DNA from: Modestobacter versicolor
GTDB taxonomy: Bacteria; Actinomycetota; Actinomycetes; Mycobacteriales; Geodermatophilaceae
Length of the DNA: 64,000 nt
Assembly (NCBI RefSeq): GCF_014195485.1
Contig: NZ_JACIBU010000001.1
Location: 1,178,001-1,242,000, forward strand
Reading direction: 5' to 3'
Shown here in pieces: positions 2,658-33,139 of the stretch (positions are counted from its first letter, which is position 1; each line of letters opens with the position of its first letter). The position numbers and the translations under genes were made by a program. The notes under the pieces were generated by a model that did not search any database, was not told the origin of the DNA, and was given only the letters and a program-made list of their open reading frames with translations.

Positions 2658-3443
2658 ATGACGGCGTGGGAGATGGTCGCGGTCGCCCTCGCCGGGCTCG
2701 CCGCCGGGTCGATCAACGCCGTCGTCGGCTCGGGCACCCTGGTCACCTTCCCGGTGCTGCTGGCCGTCGGGCTGCCCCCGGTGACCGCGACCATCTCCAA
2801 CTCCCTGGGGCTCGTGCCGGGCAACCTGACCGGCGCCATCGGCTACCGCCGCGAGCTGGCCGGGCAGCGCCGGCTGCTGCTGCGGCTGATGCCCGCGTCG
2901 GTGCTCGGCGCGCTGACCGGGTCGTTCCTGCTGCTGCACCTGCCGGCCTCGGCGTTCGAGGCGATCGTGCCCGGGTTGGTCGGCCTGGCCGTCGTCCTGG
3001 TCGCCGTCCAGCCGCTGCTGCAGCGCCGGCTGGCCGCCCGCCGGGCCCGGGCCGGCGATGACGGGGACACCACGGTCGGCGGCGGCCGGCTGGCCGCGCT
3101 CTTCGCCGGCGCCTACGCCACCGGCACCTACGGCGGCTACTTCGCCGCGAGCCAGGGCGTGCTGCAGATCGGCATCTTCGGGCTGCTGCTGCGCGAGCCG
3201 CTGCAGCGGCTCAACGCGATCAAGAACGTGCTCACCCTCGGCGTCAACGCCGTCGCCGCGCTGGCCTACGTGGTGGTCGCGACCGACCGCATCGACTGGC
3301 GGGCCGCCGGGCTGGTGGCCGGGGGGTCGCTGGTGGGCGGCTTCGTCGGCTCGACGCTGGGCCGGCGGCTGCCCGCCCCGGTGCTGCGGACGGCGATCGT
3401 GGCCCTCGGCCTGGTCGCGATCGTGGTGCTGCTGACCCGATGA
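2658..3443 (+). CDS. TSUP (TauE/SafE) family permease, first of a tandem pair
   Basis: 261 residues with two repeats of hydrophobic helices, the usual TauE/SafE layout. The repeat signatures are visible: GSINAVVGSGTLVTFPVLL near residue 17 and GTYGGYFAASQGVLQ near residue 155, both with the conserved G-x-G-G elements of the family. TSUP proteins move sulfite, sulfonates or other organic anions across the cytoplasmic membrane; the substrate here cannot be read from sequence. Its TGA overlaps the ATG of the next TSUP gene (ATGA at 3440-3443), so the two are translationally coupled and may work as a pair. Confidence 0.85.
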   Translation: MTAWEMVAVALAGLAAGSINAVVGSGTLVTFPVLLAVGLPPVTATISNSLGLVPGNLTGAIGYRRELAGQRRLLLRLMPASVLGALTGSFLLLHLPASAFEAIVPGLVGLAVVLVAVQPLLQRRLAARRARAGDDGDTTVGGGRLAALFAGAYATGTYGGYFAASQGVLQIGIFGLLLREPLQRLNAIKNVLTLGVNAVAALAYVVVATDRIDWRAAGLVAGGSLVGGFVGSTLGRRLPAPVLRTAIVALGLVAIVVLLTR

Positions 3444-4201
3444 GCGTGCTGGAGTTCGTGCTGCTGGTGCTGGCCGGGGTGGCCGCCGGGCTGGTCGGCA
3501 GCGTCGCCGGGCTGGCCTCGCTGTTCAGCTACCCCGCGCTGCTGGCCACCGGCATCCCGCCGCTGACGGCCAACGTCACCAACACCGTCGCGCTCGCCTT
3601 CAGCAGCATCGGCTCGGTCAGCGCGTCCCGCCCGGAGCTGGTCGGGCAGCGCCGCCGGCTGGTGCCGCTGTGCGTCGCCGGGCTGCTGGGCGGCGTGACC
3701 GGCGCGGTCCTGCTGCTGCTCACCCCGTCGTCGTCGTTCGAGAGGCTCGTCCCGTTCCTCATCGCCGGGGCGTCGGCGGCGATCCTGGTGCAGCGGCCGC
3801 CGCGGGAGCTGGCGGCCGAGGGCGCCGCGCACCCGCAGCGCGACTCGCGGTGGCTGGTCGTCGGCACGTACCTGGTCTCGATCTACGGCGGCTACTTCGG
3901 CGCGGCCGCCGGCGTGCTGATGCTCGCCATGCTGCTGCTGGTCACCGGCGAGGGGGTGCCGCGCAGCAACGCGGCGAAGAACGTCGTCCTCGGGGTGGCG
4001 AACTCGGTGGCCGCCCTCGGCTACGCGTTCTTCGCCGACGTCGACTGGCTCGCTGCGCTGCCACTGGCGATCGGCTTCCTGGTCGGCGGCTCGCTCGGCC
4101 CATGGGTGGTGCGCCGGGCCCCGCAGCAGCTGCTCCGCCGGCTGATCGCCGTGGCCGGGCTGGGGCTGGCCGTGCACCTGGGCCTGGACGCCTTCGGGTG
4201 A
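3440..4201 (+). CDS. TSUP (TauE/SafE) family permease, second of a tandem pair
   Basis: 253 residues, again mostly hydrophobic, with GLVGSVAGLASLFSYPALL near residue 18 and SIYGGYFGAAAGVLMLAML near residue 150 marking the two TSUP repeats. It is clearly paralogous to its upstream neighbour (same order of motifs, same length) but diverged, which suggests an old duplication or a heteromeric transporter. The ATG overlaps the preceding stop by 4 nt. No sulfur-assimilation or taurine genes are adjacent, so the substrate remains open. Confidence 0.85.
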   Translation: MSVLEFVLLVLAGVAAGLVGSVAGLASLFSYPALLATGIPPLTANVTNTVALAFSSIGSVSASRPELVGQRRRLVPLCVAGLLGGVTGAVLLLLTPSSSFERLVPFLIAGASAAILVQRPPRELAAEGAAHPQRDSRWLVVGTYLVSIYGGYFGAAAGVLMLAMLLLVTGEGVPRSNAAKNVVLGVANSVAALGYAFFADVDWLAALPLAIGFLVGGSLGPWVVRRAPQQLLRRLIAVAGLGLAVHLGLDAFG

Positions 4202-4280
4202 TGATCTCCGGTGGTGCCGACCGGCCACGACCGGCAGGCTGGTGCAGGCGCCGCCCGGCGCTCGGACGACAGGAGCAGGG

Positions 4281-5021
4281 ATGACCAGCCCGGGACCAGC
4301 GGCGCAGCGCTTCGTGCAGGAGCTGGACCAGCTGCCGCCGCCGGAGCTGCGCGGGCCGGAGATGCTCGCCGCCCGGCTGTCCCGGGCCTGCGTGGCCGCG
4401 CTGCCCGTCGACGGCGCGGGGCTGAGCATCCACGACATGAACGGGCTGCGGACGCCGATCGGCGCCAGCGACCCGGTCGCCTCCCAGGCCGAGCGGCTGC
4501 AGTTCACCCACGGCGAGGGCCCCTGCCTGCGGGCGCACGACGACGGCGTGGCGATCGCCTTCGACGAGTCGGCGATCGCCCGCAACTGGCCGGGCCTGCA
4601 CGCCTCGCTGATCGGCGAGACGCCGTTCCACGGTGTGCTCTCGGTGCCGCTGCTCCCGCCGCTGGGGCCGCTGGTCGTGCTCGACCTCTACGTGCGCGAG
4701 GCCGACGCGCTGCCGGCGACCGACCGGGACGACGTCGAGGACGTCACCATCGCGCTCACCCGCGCCATGGTCGCCGCCGCGCTCGGTGCGCCGATGCAGG
4801 AGGGCCGCCGCGGTTGGTGGGACGGCCCGGACGCGCTGCGCCGGGCCCGGGTCTGGCAGGCGACCGGCATGGTCAACGTCGCCCTCGGGCTGGACACCCC
4901 GGACGCGCTGTCGGTGCTGCGGGCGCACGCCTTCGCCGCCGGCCGGGTGGTCGACGACGTGGCCGACGACCTGGTCGAGGGCCGGCTCTCCCTCGCCGAG
5001 CTCAGCTCCTCCGACAACTGA
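4281..5021 (+). CDS. GAF and ANTAR domain-containing regulator
   Basis: 246 residues. An N-terminal GAF domain (about 25-160) includes the usual FTHGEGPCLRAHDDG block and LSVPLLPPLGPLVVLDLY strand. The C-terminal 60 residues, RRARVWQATGMVNVALGLD onward, have the ANTAR pattern that binds dual-hexaloop RNA hairpins and prevents transcription termination. Such proteins are common one-component regulators in actinobacteria. The ATG at 4281 is preceded by AGGAGCAGGG; the GTG 39 nt upstream is less likely. I see no obvious ANTAR target hairpin in the window. Confidence 0.8.
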   Translation: MTSPGPAAQRFVQELDQLPPPELRGPEMLAARLSRACVAALPVDGAGLSIHDMNGLRTPIGASDPVASQAERLQFTHGEGPCLRAHDDGVAIAFDESAIARNWPGLHASLIGETPFHGVLSVPLLPPLGPLVVLDLYVREADALPATDRDDVEDVTIALTRAMVAAALGAPMQEGRRGWWDGPDALRRARVWQATGMVNVALGLDTPDALSVLRAHAFAAGRVVDDVADDLVEGRLSLAELSSSDN

Positions 5022-27072: not shown

Positions 27073-27379
27073 GGATCCCCACGCCGACCAGGCAGACCAG
27101 GGCGCCGGCGGCGTCCCAGCGGTCCGGCCGGAAGCCGTCGGCGACCGCGGCCCACAGCAGCGACCCGACGATGAAGACCCCGCCGTAGGCCGCCAGCACC
27201 CGGCCGAACGCCGCGTCCGGCTGCAGGGTCGCCACCACCCCGTACAGCGCGAGGGCCACCGCGCCGGCGCCGACCCACGCCCAGCCGCGGTGCTCGCGCA
27301 GGCCCTGCCAGACCAGCCAGGCGCCGCCGATCTCCAGCAGCGCGGCGAGCACGAACAGGGCGATGGAGCGGGCGGTCAC
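27047..27379 (-). CDS. YnfA family small membrane protein
   Basis: 110 residues, matching the family length. Four transmembrane helices are visible, with the family blocks [51 protein letters not shown] and [22 protein letters not shown] (given here in parts). YnfA proteins belong near the small multidrug resistance fold, though transport is not proven for most. GTG 27379 is preceded by a -10-like CAGAGT at 27387-27392, 7 nt away. Divergent from the DUF998 gene. Confidence 0.85.
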
Positions 27380-27428
27380 GGCGCCCACTCTGCCGCCTCC
27401 CCGGCCGGGGCTGGGACCATGGCTCCTC

Positions 27429-28235
27429 GTGACGGACAGCCGGTACCGCTGGGGCGGGCTCGCGTGGGCACTCACGCTGCAGTTCTTCGTCGTCGAGGCG
27501 ATCGCCGCATCGCAGTTCGGCGGCTACTCCTACTCGGGGGACGTGATCAGCGACCTGGGGACGGCGGACTCGGCCGCCCGGGTGCTGATGAACGCCTCGT
27601 TCGTCGTCCAGGGGCTGCTGATCGCCGCGGGCGCGCTGCTGCTCGGCCCCGGGCTCGCCGGCACCGGCGGGCGGCTGGCCCGGGTGCTGCTGGTGGTCGC
27701 CGGCCTCGGGGTGCTGGTGGTGGGCCTCTTCCCCTCCGACGGCAACGCCACGGTGCACGGGATCGGCGCCACCGCGCACCTGCTGGGCGGTGGGCTCGGG
27801 CTCATCGCGCTGGCGTACGGGGTGCGCCCCCGGTCCGAGGAGCTCGGCACCACGCTGGCGGTGCTCGGGCTGGTCGGGGTCATCGGCACGATCTTCTTCG
27901 GCTCGGCCGTCTTCCTGCTGCTGGGCGAGGGCGGCATGGAGCGGGTGGCCGGCTACGTCATCCCGCTCGGCCTCACCGCGGCCGGCATCGCGCTGTGGCG
28001 GCAGAAGGACGACTGGCTGGCGCTGACCAACCCCGACGGCACGCCCAGCCGGCGGCAGCTGCGCGAGGACGCCCGGCTCGAGCGGCTGCAGCGCGCCGCC
28101 GAGCGCGACGCCGCCCTGGAGGCCGCGGCCCGTCGGCCGGCGGAGCGCCCGGCGCCGCCGGCCGCTGCACCGCGGGCGGCCGACGAGGACGACGACTTCG
28201 ACCCCGAGGACCCCTGGGCGCCACGCCGCCGCTGA
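27429..28235 (+). CDS. DUF998 membrane protein with acidic C-terminal tail
   Basis: 268 residues. About six helices occupy residues 8-195, with [16 protein letters not shown] and [23 protein letters not shown], both DUF998 marks; the two conserved acidic/His positions are present. The last 70 residues are charged (RR-rich then [11 protein letters not shown]) and likely cytoplasmic and disordered. Function of DUF998 is not established. GTG 27429 is the start closest to the first helix. Confidence 0.78.
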
Positions 28236-28256: not shown

Positions 28257-28306
28257 GGGACGGCCACCCCCGCCCGCTCGGTCACCGCCCTCGGGATGGC
28301 CGTCCC
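28257..28306. terminator. Inverted repeat between DUF998 gene and MerR unit
   Basis: GGGACGGCCA (28257-28266) and TGGCCGTCCC (28297-28306) are perfect complements separated by 30 nt. It lies between two convergent units and may end both transcripts. Confidence 0.5.
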
Positions 28307-28329: not shown

Positions 28330-28377
28330 TCAGCAGCAGCCGGTGTCCGTGCACTCGCAGCCGCAGTCGCAGGTCAT
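28330..28377 (-). CDS. 15-residue cysteine-rich peptide coupled to MerR gene (metallothionein-like candidate)
   Basis: The reading frame encodes MTCDCGCECTDTGCC and then TGA, six cysteines in 15 residues with CxCxCxC and a terminal CC. Its ATG (28375-28377) overlaps the TGA of the MerR gene as ATGA, the same coupling used by annotated pairs in this window. An in-frame ATG at 28384-28386 would add MPT. It is too short for gene finders. The thiol density suggests a soft-metal chelator or chaperone for the metal sensed by MerR, but no family is known to me and expression is unproven. An inverted repeat at 28257-28306 follows. Confidence 0.55.
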   Translation of the reverse strand: MTCDCGCECTDTGCC

Positions 28378-28823
28378 CGTGGGCATGCGCGGTCCCCTCC
28401 CTCCGGTTCCTCGGTCGGCGGGCACCAGGTGCCCGGGGCCGGTGGCGGGCAGTCGGCCTGCGGCAGCGCGGCGGCCATGGCGGCCATCTCCGTGCGCAGG
28501 GCGACCAGCCGGGCGATCTCCGCGTCGACCTCGGCGAGGCGGCGGCCGAGCAGCTCACCGGCGGGTTCGCAGGGGCACTCCCCGGTGTCCCGGACGGCGA
28601 GCAGGTGCCCGATGTCGACCAGCCGGAGGCCCAGCCGCTGGGCGCCCTGGATGAACCGCAGCCGGTCGACCGCGCCGGCGTCGTAGTCGCGGTAGCCGCC
28701 CGCGGTGCGCCGGGGCGGCGGGAGCAGGCCGACCCGCTCGTAGTAGCGGACGGTGTCGGTGGGCACGCCCACGGACCGGGCGAGCTCGGCGACCCGGAGC
28801 CCGCGGGCGGTCGTCGTCGTCAT
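28374..28823 (-). CDS. MerR-family metal-responsive regulator
   Basis: 149 residues. The N-terminal MerR HTH is typical: [40 protein letters not shown], residues 9-48. A dimerisation helix follows, with LAEVDAEIARLVALRTEMAAM. Cysteines at 83 and 85 (ECPCEP), 125, 134 and 147 form a likely binding site for Cd, Zn, Pb or a related soft metal, as in the CadR/ZntR group. Its promoter has the 20-bp spacer and spacer palindrome of MerR-controlled promoters, and the ATG is 6 nt after the -10, so the message is probably leaderless. The only other gene in this unit is the cysteine-rich peptide. Confidence 0.85.
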   Translation of the reverse strand: MTTTTARGLRVAELARSVGVPTDTVRYYERVGLLPPPRRTAGGYRDYDAGAVDRLRFIQGAQRLGLRLVDIGHLLAVRDTGECPCEPAGELLGRRLAEVDAEIARLVALRTEMAAMAAALPQADCPPPAPGTWCPPTEEPEGGDRACPR

Positions 28824-28829
28824 GCCGCC

Positions 28830-28861
28830 ATCGTCGACCCTGGACCCGGGTCCGGGGTCAA
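28830..28861 (-). promoter_or_regulatory. MerR-type promoter with 20-bp spacer
   Basis: On the minus strand, -35 TTGACC (28861-28856) and -10 GACGAT (28835-28830) are 20 bp apart. The spacer is largely a 24-bp near-perfect palindrome at 28836-28859 with one mismatched pair. Long spacers bridged by a dyad are the hallmark of promoters that MerR proteins untwist when metal is bound. Confidence 0.72.
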
Positions 28862-28874
28862 GCCCGCTCGCCGG

Positions 28875-29234
28875 TCAGGAGCAGCAGGCGTCGGCGCCCT
28901 CGGGGGTGAGCGCGGCGAGGGTGGCCAGCGCCTTCACCGGGCCGGCGAGGGCCTCGCAGCACAACGCGTACACGTTGCTGCGGCCCTTGGGGGTGATGGT
29001 GACCAGCCCCTGCTCGCGCAGCGGGGCGAGGTGGTGGCTGACCAGGGTCTGGCTCATCCCGGCCGCGTCGGTGAGCTCGCGGACGGTGCGCGGGCCCTCG
29101 GCGAGCAGCAGCAGCAGGTGCAGCCGGTTCGGGTCCGACAGCGCCTTCAGCTGGGGGGCGAGCAGCCGGGCGCGGTCGGCCGGCGAGGTCTGCTCGTCGA
29201 CGTCGAGGAGGCGGACGTCCAGGGCCTGCGTCAT
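28875..29234 (-). CDS. ArsR/SmtB-family metal(loid) sensor
   Basis: 119 residues. The HTH reads LKALSDPNRLHLLLLL, then VRELTDAAGMSQTLVSHHLAPLREQGLV. Cysteine pairs are in ALCCEAL near residue 88 and at the C terminus (ACCS, residues 117-118), a layout like CmtR-type or C-terminal-site sensors rather than the CxC of classical ArsR. ATG 29234 has a -10-like CAGACT (29241-29246) 6 nt upstream. It is divergent from the flavoprotein gene, with an inverted repeat between them that it probably binds. Confidence 0.84.
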   Translation of the reverse strand: MTQALDVRLLDVDEQTSPADRARLLAPQLKALSDPNRLHLLLLLAEGPRTVRELTDAAGMSQTLVSHHLAPLREQGLVTITPKGRSNVYALCCEALAGPVKALATLAALTPEGADACCS

Positions 29235-29240
29235 GCGGCC

Positions 29241-29281
29241 AGTCTGCCACATCGCCGTTGCTGTCAACAGCATCCGCTGTT
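29241..29281. promoter_or_regulatory. Operator in the ArsR/flavoprotein divergent promoter
   Basis: AACAGC (29266-29271) and GCTGTT (29276-29281) flank ATCC as a perfect inverted repeat; an overlapping GCTGT-CA-ACAGC dyad starts a few bases before. The minus-strand -10-like CAGACT for arsR is at 29241-29246. One repressor site here can control both directions. Confidence 0.6.
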
Positions 29282-29323: not shown

Positions 29324-30712
29324 ATGAGCGCAGACACGACGGACGACCTGCCGGTCGTGGTGATCGGGGCGGGGCCGGTCGGCCTGGCCGCCGCCGCCCA
29401 CCTGCTCGAGCGCGGCCTGGAGCCGCTCGTGCTGGAGGCCGGGCCCACGCCCGGGGCCGCGGTGCGCGCCTGGGGGCACGTCCGGCTGTTCTCGCCCTGG
29501 GAGTACGACGTCGACGCCGCGGCCGCCCGGCTGCTGGCCGCCGAGGGCTGGACGGCGCCCGACCCGGACGCGCTGCCCACCGGCGCCGAGCTGGTCGAGG
29601 GCTACCTCGCCCCGCTCGCGGCGACCGCAGCCCTGGCGCCGCGGATCCGCACCGGCGTGCGGGTGACCGCCGTGTCCCGGGCCGGGGTGGACAAGACCCG
29701 CACGGTGGGCCGCGAGGGCCGGCCCTACCTGGTGCGGACCGTCGTCGACGGCCGGGTCGAGGACCTCCCCGCGCGAGCGGTCGTCGACGCCTCGGGCACC
29801 TGGGGCCAGCGCAACCCGCTGGGCACCGCCGGGCTCCCCGCCGTCGGCGAGCCGGAGGCCGCACCGTGGCTGACCGGCCCGCTCCCCGACGTGCTCGGCG
29901 CCGACCGGGCCCGGTTCGCCGGGAAGCACACCCTGGTCATCGGCATGGGGCACTCCGCCGCCAACACGCTGCTCGCCCTGGTCGCCCTCCGGGAGACCGT
30001 GCCCGGCACGGAGATCAGCTGGGCCATCCGCGGCCGCTCCCCCGCCCGGCTCTACGGCGGCGGCGACGACGACGGCCTCCCGGCCCGCGGCCTGCTGGGC
30101 TCGCGGCTCGAGGAGGCGGTGCAGGCCGGCGCCGTCACCCTGCACCGCGAGGTGGCGGTCACCGCCCTGACGCCGTCCGCCGGCGGCCGGCTGAGGGTCA
30201 CCGGCACCGCCCGCGACGGCGCGGCCCTCGCGCTCGACGTCGACGCGGTCGCCGCGGCGACCGGTTTCCGCCCCGACCTCGCGATGCTCCGCGAGGTGCG
30301 GCTGGACCTCGACCCGGCGCTGGAGGCGCCGGTTCGGCTGGCGCCGCTGATCGACCCGAACTCCCACTCCTGCGGCACCGTCCCGCCGCACGGGCACCGC
30401 GAGCTGGCCCACCCCGACGAGGGCCTCTACCTGGTCGGGATGAAGTCCTACGGCCGGGCGCCGACGTTCCTGCTGGCCACCGGCTACGAGCAGGTCCGCT
30501 CGGTCGCCGCGGCCCTCGCCGGCGACACCGCCGGCGCCGACCAGGTGCAGCTGCACCTGCCCTCCACCGGCGTCTGCAGCACCGACCTCGGCGCCCGCGA
30601 GGACGCCGAGACGTCTGCGGCGAGCTGCGCGACGCCGGTCGGCTTCAGCACCGGACGGGAGCACGGCTGGTCCGCGGAGCACGACGACGAGGTCGCCGTC
30701 GCCGGCGCGTGA
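29324..30712 (+). CDS. FAD-dependent oxidoreductase of arsenic-operon type (ArsO-like flavoprotein)
   Basis: 462 residues with two dinucleotide-binding sites: VVVIGAGPVGLAAAAHLLERG at residues 11-31 for FAD and HTLVIGMGHSAANTL near 205 for NADPH. The aromatic block WGHVRLFSPWEYDVD near 50 and the C-terminal LPSTGVCS are features I associate with flavoproteins found in actinobacterial arsenic loci. It likely oxidises or reduces an arsenic or thiol compound, but the reaction is not proven. ATG 29324 follows GGACGGAG. It is divergent from an ArsR gene and precedes a degraded stretch where a transporter might be expected. Confidence 0.78.
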   Translation: MSADTTDDLPVVVIGAGPVGLAAAAHLLERGLEPLVLEAGPTPGAAVRAWGHVRLFSPWEYDVDAAAARLLAAEGWTAPDPDALPTGAELVEGYLAPLAATAALAPRIRTGVRVTAVSRAGVDKTRTVGREGRPYLVRTVVDGRVEDLPARAVVDASGTWGQRNPLGTAGLPAVGEPEAAPWLTGPLPDVLGADRARFAGKHTLVIGMGHSAANTLLALVALRETVPGTEISWAIRGRSPARLYGGGDDDGLPARGLLGSRLEEAVQAGAVTLHREVAVTALTPSAGGRLRVTGTARDGAALALDVDAVAAATGFRPDLAMLREVRLDLDPALEAPVRLAPLIDPNSHSCGTVPPHGHRELAHPDEGLYLVGMKSYGRAPTFLLATGYEQVRSVAAALAGDTAGADQVQLHLPSTGVCSTDLGAREDAETSAASCATPVGFSTGREHGWSAEHDDEVAVAGA

Positions 30713-31503: not shown

Positions 31504-31917
31504 TCAGCGCCCGGCGGCGGGCACCTGCAGCTCGGCGAGCAGGCCGCGGACGCGGCCCTCGATCTCGTCGCGGATCGGGCGCACCGACTCCACGCCCTTG
31601 CCGGCCGGGTCCTCGAGCACCCAGTCCAGGTACCGCTTGCCGGGGAAGACCGGGCAGGCGTCACCGCAGCCCATGGTGATGACCACGTCGGAGGCCTCGA
31701 CCGCGTCGGTGGTGAGCACCTTGGGCTGCTGGTCGGAGATGTCGATGCCGACCTCGGCCATGGCGACGACGGCCGAGGGGTTGACCTGGTCGCCCGGGAC
31801 CGACCCGGCCGAGCGGACCTCGACGGCGTCGCCGGCCAGGTGGCGCAGCCACCCTGCGGCCATCTGGGACCGGCCGGCGTTGTGCACGCAGACGAACAGG
31901 ACACTGGGGGTGCTCAT
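31504..31917 (-). CDS. arsC: Arsenate reductase, low-molecular-weight phosphatase type
   Basis: 137 residues. The P-loop CVHNAGRSQ (C-x5-R) is at residues 10-18, and a second cysteine is in GCGDACPVFPGKRYLDWVLEDPAG near 82-86, where the catalytic Cys relay is expected. It reduces arsenate to arsenite using thioredoxin or mycoredoxin so that the Acr3 pump can export it. The ATG overlaps the stop of acr3 (ATGA at 31914-31917), so it is the second gene of an acr3-arsC operon controlled by the divergent ArsR. Confidence 0.92.
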   Translation of the reverse strand: MSTPSVLFVCVHNAGRSQMAAGWLRHLAGDAVEVRSAGSVPGDQVNPSAVVAMAEVGIDISDQQPKVLTTDAVEASDVVITMGCGDACPVFPGKRYLDWVLEDPAGKGVESVRPIRDEIEGRVRGLLAELQVPAAGR

Positions 31918-33047
31918 GCGCTCCTCCGGGAGGGCTCGGTGGTGGTGGGGACGGTCGGGTCGCCGGGGAACCAGCGGCGGGCGGCCCGGAGCGAGACGTG
32001 GACGAGCGCGACGAGCACCGGCACCTCGATCAGCGGGCCGACGACGCCGGCGAGGGCCTGGCCGGAGGTGACGCCGAAGGTGCCGATCGCCACGGCGATG
32101 GCCAGCTCGAAGTTGTTGCCGGCGGCGGTGAAGGCGAGCGTGGCGGTCTTCGCGTAGCCCAGCCGCAGCCGCATGCCGAGCAGGAACGAACCGCCGAACA
32201 TCAGCGCGAAGTAGGCCAGCAGCGGCAGCGCGATCCGGACGACGTCCCAGGGGTTCGACGTGATGGCGTCGCCCTGCAGGGCGAACAGCATGACGATGGT
32301 GAACAGCAGCCCGTAGAGCGCCACCGGGCCGATCCGCGGCAGGAACCGGCCCTCGTACCAGTCGCGGCCCTTGCTGCGCTCGCCGATCGTGCGGGTGAGG
32401 AACCCGGCGACCAGCGGGATGCCGAGGAAGACCAGCACCGAGACGACGATGGCCCACACGCTGAACTCCGCCGAGGTGGTCGGCAGGCCCAGCCAGCCGG
32501 GGAGCACCTGCAGGTAGAACCAGCCGAGCGCGCCGAAGGCGAGGATCTGGAACACGGAGTTGATCGCGACCAGGACGGCGGCGGCCTCCCGGTCACCGCA
32601 GGACAGGTCGTTCCAGATCAGCACCATGGCGATGCACCGGGCCAGGCCGACGATGACCAGGCCGGTGCGGTACTCGGGCAGGTCGGGCAGCAGCACCCAG
32701 GCCAGGCCGAACATCAGCGCCGGCCCGATCAGCCAGTTCAGCACCAGCGAGGCGGCCAGCAGCCTGCGGTCGCCGGTGACCCGGTCCAGCTCGGAGTACC
32801 GGACCTTGGCCAGCACCGGGTACATCATCAGCAGCAGCCCGACCGCGATCGGCAGGCTCACCTCGCCGACCCGGACGGCGTCCAGCGCGTCGTCGAGGCC
32901 CGGCACCAGCCGGCCGAGCAGCAGACCGGCGACCATCGCCACCAGGATCCACACCGGCAGGAACCGGTCCAGCGTCGACAGCCGGGCCAGCACCGGGGTC
33001 TCCACGTCGGTGGCCGGCCGGGGGGTCTCGGCGACGGTGTCGCTCAT
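31914..33047 (-). CDS. acr3: Arsenite efflux permease Acr3
   Basis: 377 residues with ten hydrophobic helices. The family marks are clear: LARCIAMVLIWNDLSCGD near residue 140 holding the essential cysteine, LAFTAAGNNFELAIAVAIGTFG near 300, and VGPLIEVPVLVALVHVSL near 335. It exports arsenite (and perhaps antimonite) across the cytoplasmic membrane. ATG 33047 is preceded by GGAGCAG. First gene of the acr3-arsC operon, with two ArsR sites just upstream. Confidence 0.92.
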   Translation of the reverse strand: MSDTVAETPRPATDVETPVLARLSTLDRFLPVWILVAMVAGLLLGRLVPGLDDALDAVRVGEVSLPIAVGLLLMMYPVLAKVRYSELDRVTGDRRLLAASLVLNWLIGPALMFGLAWVLLPDLPEYRTGLVIVGLARCIAMVLIWNDLSCGDREAAAVLVAINSVFQILAFGALGWFYLQVLPGWLGLPTTSAEFSVWAIVVSVLVFLGIPLVAGFLTRTIGERSKGRDWYEGRFLPRIGPVALYGLLFTIVMLFALQGDAITSNPWDVVRIALPLLAYFALMFGGSFLLGMRLRLGYAKTATLAFTAAGNNFELAIAVAIGTFGVTSGQALAGVVGPLIEVPVLVALVHVSLRAARRWFPGDPTVPTTTEPSRRSA

Positions 33048-33069
33048 GCGGGGGCTGCTCCTCGGGTTC

Positions 33070-33139
33070 ATCGACACCGGTCGATGTCCGTGGTGAGGAT
33101 GCCCGGGGTATCGACAGCCGTCAATGTCCGGCCGATACT
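33070..33139. promoter_or_regulatory. Paired ArsR operators and arsR promoter
   Basis: ATCGACACCGGTCGAT (33070-33085) and ATCGACAGCCGTCAAT (33110-33125) are related inverted repeats 40 bp apart in the acr3/arsR divergent region. The plus-strand promoter TCGACA (33111-33116), 17 bp, GATACT (33134-33139) lies over the second site, and arsR starts 6 nt later. The first site is placed to control acr3. Confidence 0.78.

Follow-up and report, generated by a model that had tools for sequence, protein, structure and literature searches.

A MerR-Linked Cysteine-Rich Peptide Gene in Modestobacter versicolor and Other Actinomycetota: A Candidate Micro-Metallothionein

Introduction

Metal-responsive regulators such as MerR, CadR, PbrR and ZntR, which are found with P-type ATPase or mer genes, have a common MerR fold, an operator dyad between the -35 and -10 elements, and metal-binding Cys residues. 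Bacterial metallothioneins, including SmtA, the Pseudomonas metallothioneins and mycobacterial MymT, are small, Cys-rich proteins of about 50-80 aa that contain few aromatic residues and are tied to metal handling. Short fungal metallothioneins and phytochelatins are peptides of about 25 aa or less, which are rich in CxC and bind metals through thiolates.

According to the available part of PMC7387436, Pseudomonas metallothioneins are His-rich, and an in silico survey of actinobacterial metallothioneins (Schmidt 2010) is cited in the available part of PMC4531530. As far as the accessible text of PMC12301328 goes, the closest precedent for the locus described here is Zrd of Pseudomonas aeruginosa, an unannotated small Cys-containing protein under CadR, which has two predicted zinc-ribbon domains, has been likened to metallothioneins, and is associated with a second CadR site between converging genes. 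Among the full-text literature matches listed, the available passages held no description of a MerR and Cys-rich peptide pair.

The peptides reported here share the small size, Cys-richness and scarcity of aromatic residues of the bacterial metallothioneins, which are larger (the peptides have 11-38 aa) and, in the case of Pseudomonas as described in that source, His-rich, whereas His occurs in only 8 of 69 peptides. Similar to Zrd, a formerly unannotated small Cys protein would be driven by a MerR-family metal regulator; compared with Zrd as described there, the peptide is much smaller, lacks any recognised domain and is encoded within the regulator's own unit. Unlike fungal metallothioneins and the enzyme-made phytochelatins, the peptides are bacterial, gene-encoded and provided with a dedicated sensor. 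The regulator also differs from MerR, CadR, PbrR and ZntR in that its operator faces merR and the peptide and in an extra Cys83 within a CPC motif, although three close relatives appear to drive a P-type ATPase.

Results

The gene pair in the window

The window, which is the whole stretch of 64,000 nucleotides analysed here, contains the following features.

28824..28861, minus strand: predicted MerR-type operator-promoter (TTGACC, 20 nt with dyad, weak -10 GACGAT, 6 nt to the merR ATG)
28374..28823, minus strand: merR, MerR-family regulator of 149 aa, TGA at 28376-28374
28394..28404, minus strand: Shine-Dalgarno (SD)-like purine stretch GGAGGGAGGGG, inside the merR 3' end
28330..28386, minus strand: predicted Cys-rich peptide gene, 18 codons and TGA, product MPTMTCDCGCECTDTGCC, start where the start of relatives is conserved
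28330..28377, minus strand: shorter 15-aa form MTCDCGCECTDTGCC from an inner ATG, with ATGA overlap at the merR TGA
28258..28305, minus strand: inverted repeat 3' of the peptide frame, arms GGACGGCCA (28305-28297) and TGGCCGTCC (28266-28258)
27363-28235, plus strand: DUF998 protein, the next gene after the peptide, convergent
28875..29273, minus strand: arsR, ArsR/SmtB-family regulator, context upstream of merR and outside the core unit
29324-30712, plus strand: flavoprotein in the ars cluster
31504-31917, minus strand: ArsC
31914-33077, minus strand: Acr3 (437.7 bits, TIGR00832)

The merR product carries the motif RDTGECPCEPA and Cys at 83, 85, 124 and 134, and its winged-helix and dimer-helix domains score above gathering in Pfam (PF13411, PF09278, PF00376). 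It stays below the cut-off of every NCBIfam MerR-type model listed, including the MerR(Hg), CadR/PbrR, ZntR and CueR equivalogs, with best scores of 89.5 bits against a cut-off of 150.85 (TIGR02051) and 84.4 against 151.45 (TIGR02047), and its best PDB match is 4ua1, titled 'Regulatory protein'.

As the sequence-only reading had described, the merR TGA overlaps the ATG of a 15-aa frame in which 6 of 15 residues are Cys and which is closed by TGA. That reading took the inner ATG as the start, which is found at the same place also in L003 and L015; relatives instead conserve an in-frame ATG at 28386, 9 nt upstream of it and 10 nt before the merR stop, a position used in most Geodermatophilaceae relatives, and therefore the window peptide is probably the 18-aa form. 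The ATGA coupling exists in the window but is not the conserved feature, as relatives range from overlap through gap to fusion. Most relatives have a stronger SD than the window copy, which scored 5, and both this SD and the -10 element are weaker than consensus. The inverted repeat reported behind the peptide is present, and L002 and L004 have a similar one, but the predicted fold pairs other bases into two adjacent hairpins (z = -2.05; 7 of 200 shuffles as stable); it is possibly a terminator without a U tract. Among 686 short ATG/GTG frames of 8-45 aa on both strands of the window, only three reach 4 Cys together with a Cys content of 20%, and the peptide frame, read from its two starts, accounts for two of them.

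The suggestion that the unit contains nothing else did not hold for its surroundings, since arsR ends 51 nt before merR and the ars cluster adjoins. The flavoprotein of this cluster is ArsO-like, yet it reaches 54.3 bits against an NCBIfam cut-off of 425.

Conservation of the pair in Geodermatophilaceae and Actinomycetota

In 112 Geodermatophilaceae genomes, 22 merR copies at 59% identity or more were found in 20 genomes. At the merR stop, each of the 20 first-copy loci (L001-L020) carries a Cys-rich frame of only 16-23 aa with 5-8 Cys. Loss of the frame in relatives, or of its Cys, which the sequence-only reading had named as grounds against its proposal, was looked for, and the outcome did not refute the proposal. 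One of the two second copies also has the frame: in L130 the merR tail is frameshifted and the peptide frame intact, and in L129 a related MerR and an SD-like stretch are kept and the peptide is lost. In Geodermatophilus obscurus (L020/L090), merR is frameshifted and the peptide frame kept; L020/L090, L129 and L130 are decaying copies. Behind ten more distant family MerRs that lack the CPC motif (L021-L030), no convincing frame was seen; the script picked a single candidate, in L030, which begins at +52 and is not preceded by an SD.

Species genomes were searched with 18 aligned MerRs as query, which gave at least 558 MerR relatives; the best 80 of these were analysed (68 loci from Actinomycetota and 12 from other phyla; L031-L090 partly repeat genomes of L002-L020). 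With a start no more than 30 nt from the stop, 8-45 aa, at least 4 Cys and at least 20% Cys as criteria, a script found a Cys-rich frame after MerR in 60 of the 68 actinomycetotal loci among these best 80, and in 61 once the early stop of L058 is used (11-32 aa, 4-10 Cys). The same script found a frame in 0 of 624 other genes of those loci, as defined by a GC3 heuristic that was also used to call the neighbour genes discussed below, and in 0 of the 12 non-actinomycetotal MerRs. An SD match of at least 6 nt precedes 57 of the 60 scripted actinomycetotal frames, and in the phylum set 56 of 59 scripted picks have one of 7-8 nt. Among the remaining loci, L048, L074 and L075 have a related MerR and no peptide frame, L095 has a frame with only 2 Cys as read by eye, and longer frames follow in L096 (59 aa), L097 (38 aa, 16% Cys) and L101 (Cys-containing). 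The named hosts include Geodermatophilaceae, Micromonosporaceae, Pseudonocardiaceae, Glycomycetaceae, Propionibacteriaceae, Ornithinimicrobiaceae, Intrasporangiaceae, Jiangellaceae, Thermomonosporaceae, Nocardiopsidaceae and Egibacteraceae.

In a second phylum sample, 46 of 396 genomes gave a MerR match at 1e-30. The 29 further loci listed from it, among which L134, L137 and L138 seem to duplicate L059, L094 and L095, comprise 12 with a short Cys-rich frame (L150 with a TTG start and weak SD), 3 with an in-frame fusion, 2 with a longer Cys-rich frame and 12 with none, 7 of these last being MerRs without the CPC motif. The spread of the frame over the phylum thus extends the result in the family; MerR and the Cys-rich peptide are, by these comparisons, almost certainly a conserved gene pair, and the predicted peptide gene is overlooked and present in many actinobacteria.

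Several variants were observed beside this pattern. In L139 and L152, which are distant relatives without the frame, the place behind MerR is taken by a small thioredoxin-like gene that contains a CPVCEPA stretch. A nearly identical second Cys-rich peptide of MTDGGCPCCGCPCGDCGGSGSR type is present in L136, L137, L142 and L149, and L094 has two peptides in a row, one of this type at +53 from the merR stop behind the first frame MSSVPCDCPPECCPPDCC. The 59- and 63-aa variants in L096 and L156 have a Cys-rich N-terminal half and a charged coiled-coil-like tail, with the same kind of MerR upstream.

The pair also occurs on a plasmid (L162), and Rhodococcus plasmid pGA1 has the peptide MHDCCEDPMCPPELCGCGC in a stretch without a listed gene, its gene table being incomplete. 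A phage element was rejected as an explanation, since 19 pattern matches in viral contigs included 0 relatives and a plasmid copy exists.

The peptide frame as a protein gene

Codons were compared in 69 distinct frames (1462 codons; 11-38 aa, median 21), which include the 38-aa frame of L097 that is below the 20% Cys criterion and leave out L030 and L094 (unrelated or not the first frame); for L009, L011, L031 and L033, where the script had picked a GTG at -4, the start at -10 was used. Cys accounts for 483 of the 1462 codons (33%), and the TGC/TGT triplets are distributed over the three frames as 483:46:6. By chance, about 1/9 of the changes in a Cys codon would be silent. Between near relatives, 45 silent and 43 other changes were counted in Cys codons, compared with 94 and 261 in the remaining codons, and therefore the Cys codons appear to be held; the counts were made pairwise, and the pairs are not independent events. 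All three frame relations between peptide and merR occur, at offsets of -29 to +35, with and without overlap. This variable relation to MerR, together with the held Cys codons, argues for an independent gene.

The peptides are acidic (K+R 36, D+E 325) and nearly free of aromatic residues (F+Y+W 9 of 1462), and CC is present in 65 and CxC in 62 of the 69 frames. The shortest are MDDCCTCCDCC, MDDCCTSCDCC, MLDDCCCGGCC and MTDDCCGTGCC. The sequence hallmarks of metallothioneins, namely short length, Cys-richness with CC/CxC and few aromatics, are present; Cys spacing and length vary too much to demonstrate a common fold, and residues other than Cys vary strongly. Seven peptides or longer variants had 0 matches in Pfam and six had 0 in NCBIfam, and the window peptide, too short alone and hence searched in Pfam as an artificial tandem, had no match.

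Operator and regulon

The predicted site before merR has the arrangement of metal-MerR operators, a dyad between -35 and -10 with a 19-20 nt spacer. Among the best 80 of at least 558 relatives, a dyad with the consensus CTTGACCTTGGAGtCgGcTCCAAGGTtTAcCGTC precedes merR with a score of at least 12 bits in 63 of 68 actinomycetotal loci, a count from a matrix trained on 42 of the loci scored and including L048, which scores better in reverse. The dyad is not specific to peptide units: in the forward direction it also reaches 12 bits in 10 of 12 non-actinomycetotal MerRs, two of which score clearly higher in reverse, and this is what metal MerRs would be expected to show. A spacer of 20 nt separates TTGACC from a TAnnnT-like -10, and in 40 of 43 regex-matched loci the merR start codon lies 38-40 nt after TTG; this spacing suggests that the promoter is of MerR type and that merR is transcribed as a leaderless mRNA.

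Exact matches to the pattern TTGACCYNGGANNNNNNTCCNRGGYN number 17 across the 112 family genomes and fall in 16 of them. Each stands directly before a merR of this clade (within about 50 nt), and the reversed pattern, used as a control, gave 0 sites throughout. With one mismatch allowed, the only other match in the window genome is the reverse strand of the same dyad. Since all 17 sites are at merR of this clade, MerR and the peptide would be the whole regulon as far as this stringent pattern, which could miss weaker targets, can see; to that extent the search bears out the proposal that the peptide is the only output of the MerR promoter besides MerR itself.

A possible exchange of the peptide for a P-type ATPase

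Three relatives without the peptide have a divergent P-type ATPase, namely Mycobacterium sp. ENV421 (L048), Streptomyces pFRL4 (L163) and Mycobacteroides abscessus pGD22-1 (L164), and their operators point to the ATPase (reverse 35.9, 40.0 and 35.9 bits vs forward 17.9, 14.5 and 17.9). Their MerRs, two of which are identical proteins, form one branch (support 100/98) inside the CPCEPA clade. The L163 ATPase scores above the cut-offs of heavy-metal and cadmium-family models and, by a narrow margin, also above that for copper. Heavy-metal ATPases usually carry a CPC motif; the L163 protein (2817-4826, minus) reads CSC (VVACSCSFAMATP) at that place, and its metal may be unusual. Within the best 80 of at least 558 relatives, a relative of this ATPase is nearby in 4 of 68 actinomycetotal loci (L047 with the peptide; L048, L075 and L101 without) vs 11 of 12 non-actinomycetotal ones. 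The ATPase in place of the peptide is the best indication that the peptide serves metal resistance in some other way.

The metal

In alignment with the sequences of solved MerR and CadR proteins, Cys85 is at the canonical ligand position and Cys83 is extra, and Cys124 and Cys134 are probably the other canonical ligands; Cys134 is missing from the sensors of L060 and L162, which keep the peptide. Within about 6 kb, ars genes are present at 11 of 68 loci of the best 80 of at least 558, a raw frequency uncorrected for background, and 6 of these 11 are from Geodermatophilaceae and not independent. Metal genes other than ars were not found recurring beside the unit in the 68 loci. The ars linkage hints at As/Sb and the ATPase at Cd/Zn/Pb. 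As/Sb and the Cd/Pb/Hg/Zn class are rated about equally likely as the bound metal.

Discussion

Sequence comparison provides the operator before merR, the peptide's own start and SD, the held Cys codons and the conserved pairing, and the best explanation, to which we give a probability of roughly 0.7, is an autoregulated sense-and-sequester module with a gene-encoded micro-metallothionein, the peptide being, with equal probability, the metal-binding effector. A soft thiophilic metal or metalloid would bind the Cys pocket of MerR, which would then distort the long-spacer promoter, and a leaderless mRNA of merR and the peptide would be made. Translation of the peptide would begin from its own SD at the merR stop, and the metal might be held as a small cluster by the 4-10 thiolates that the peptide offers within 11-32 residues. 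By lowering the free metal, it would also switch off MerR, and it would in effect be a gene-encoded analogue of phytochelatin or of a minimal metallothionein.

Alternatively, the peptide might act less as a bulk sink than as a feedback or delivery factor that removes metal from MerR or passes it on to an exporter or to thiols. Its apparent presence on the same mRNA as the sensor, its very small size and the ars genes near 11 of 68 loci would fit such a role, which we nevertheless consider unlikely, given that non-Cys residues vary strongly and that no partner gene is common to most loci, the largest neighbour cluster (oxidoreductase-like by eye, probably mixed) occurring in only 19. A precursor of a RiPP or other peptide was also rejected, since no gene for a modifying enzyme is shared by most of the loci.

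Polycysteine short ORFs of mycobacteria have been reported as attenuators that sense cysteine supply and control downstream genes (Canestrari 2020, as cited in the available part of PMC9094748). The frame described here is likewise short, Cys-rich and actinobacterial, and a same-strand gene follows within 150 nt in 13 of 60 loci (L094 left out). Such an attenuator is held very improbable mainly because of gene order: it would lie upstream of, and in one unit with, the genes it regulates, whereas a convergent gene comes next in the window and in 34 of the 60 loci, as called by a GC3 heuristic. Moreover, the frame has an SD and follows a metal-type MerR.

Programmed frameshifting or read-through could give MerR a Cys-rich C-terminal tail, with the separate peptide as a by-product, and in-frame MerR-peptide fusions do exist in three relatives (L133, L145, L153). 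This possibility, which is just as improbable as the attenuator, was rejected on account of the varied frame relation and the separate SD and start, an SD-like purine stretch and ATG being present just before the Cys stretch even in the fusions. A chance product of the GC-rich 3' end, where TGC is common and the frame short, is hardly credible and was dismissed on 60 of 68 loci vs 0 of 624 genes by the same script and on the crowding of Cys triplets in one frame.

Taking the micro-metallothionein reading further, we consider it likely, with somewhat less confidence than for the module itself, that these comparisons point to phylum-wide unannotated micro-metallothioneins (down to 11 residues with 4-6 Cys), each with its own MerR and a one-operon regulon, in which sequestration is an evolutionary alternative to the MerR-driven export ATPase. 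Gene callers seldom consider frames this short, which would explain why these peptides have escaped annotation. Because forms of 11 to 18 aa are accessible by synthesis, their metal specificity and cluster structure can be tested directly, and the MerR-operator pair could be used as it stands in a biosensor. If true, one regulator lineage swapping its output between export and sequestration would be a clean case of its kind, and a bacterial metal-binding protein could work at only 11-20 residues; the peptides would then be among the smallest metal-binding proteins known and widespread in Actinomycetota.
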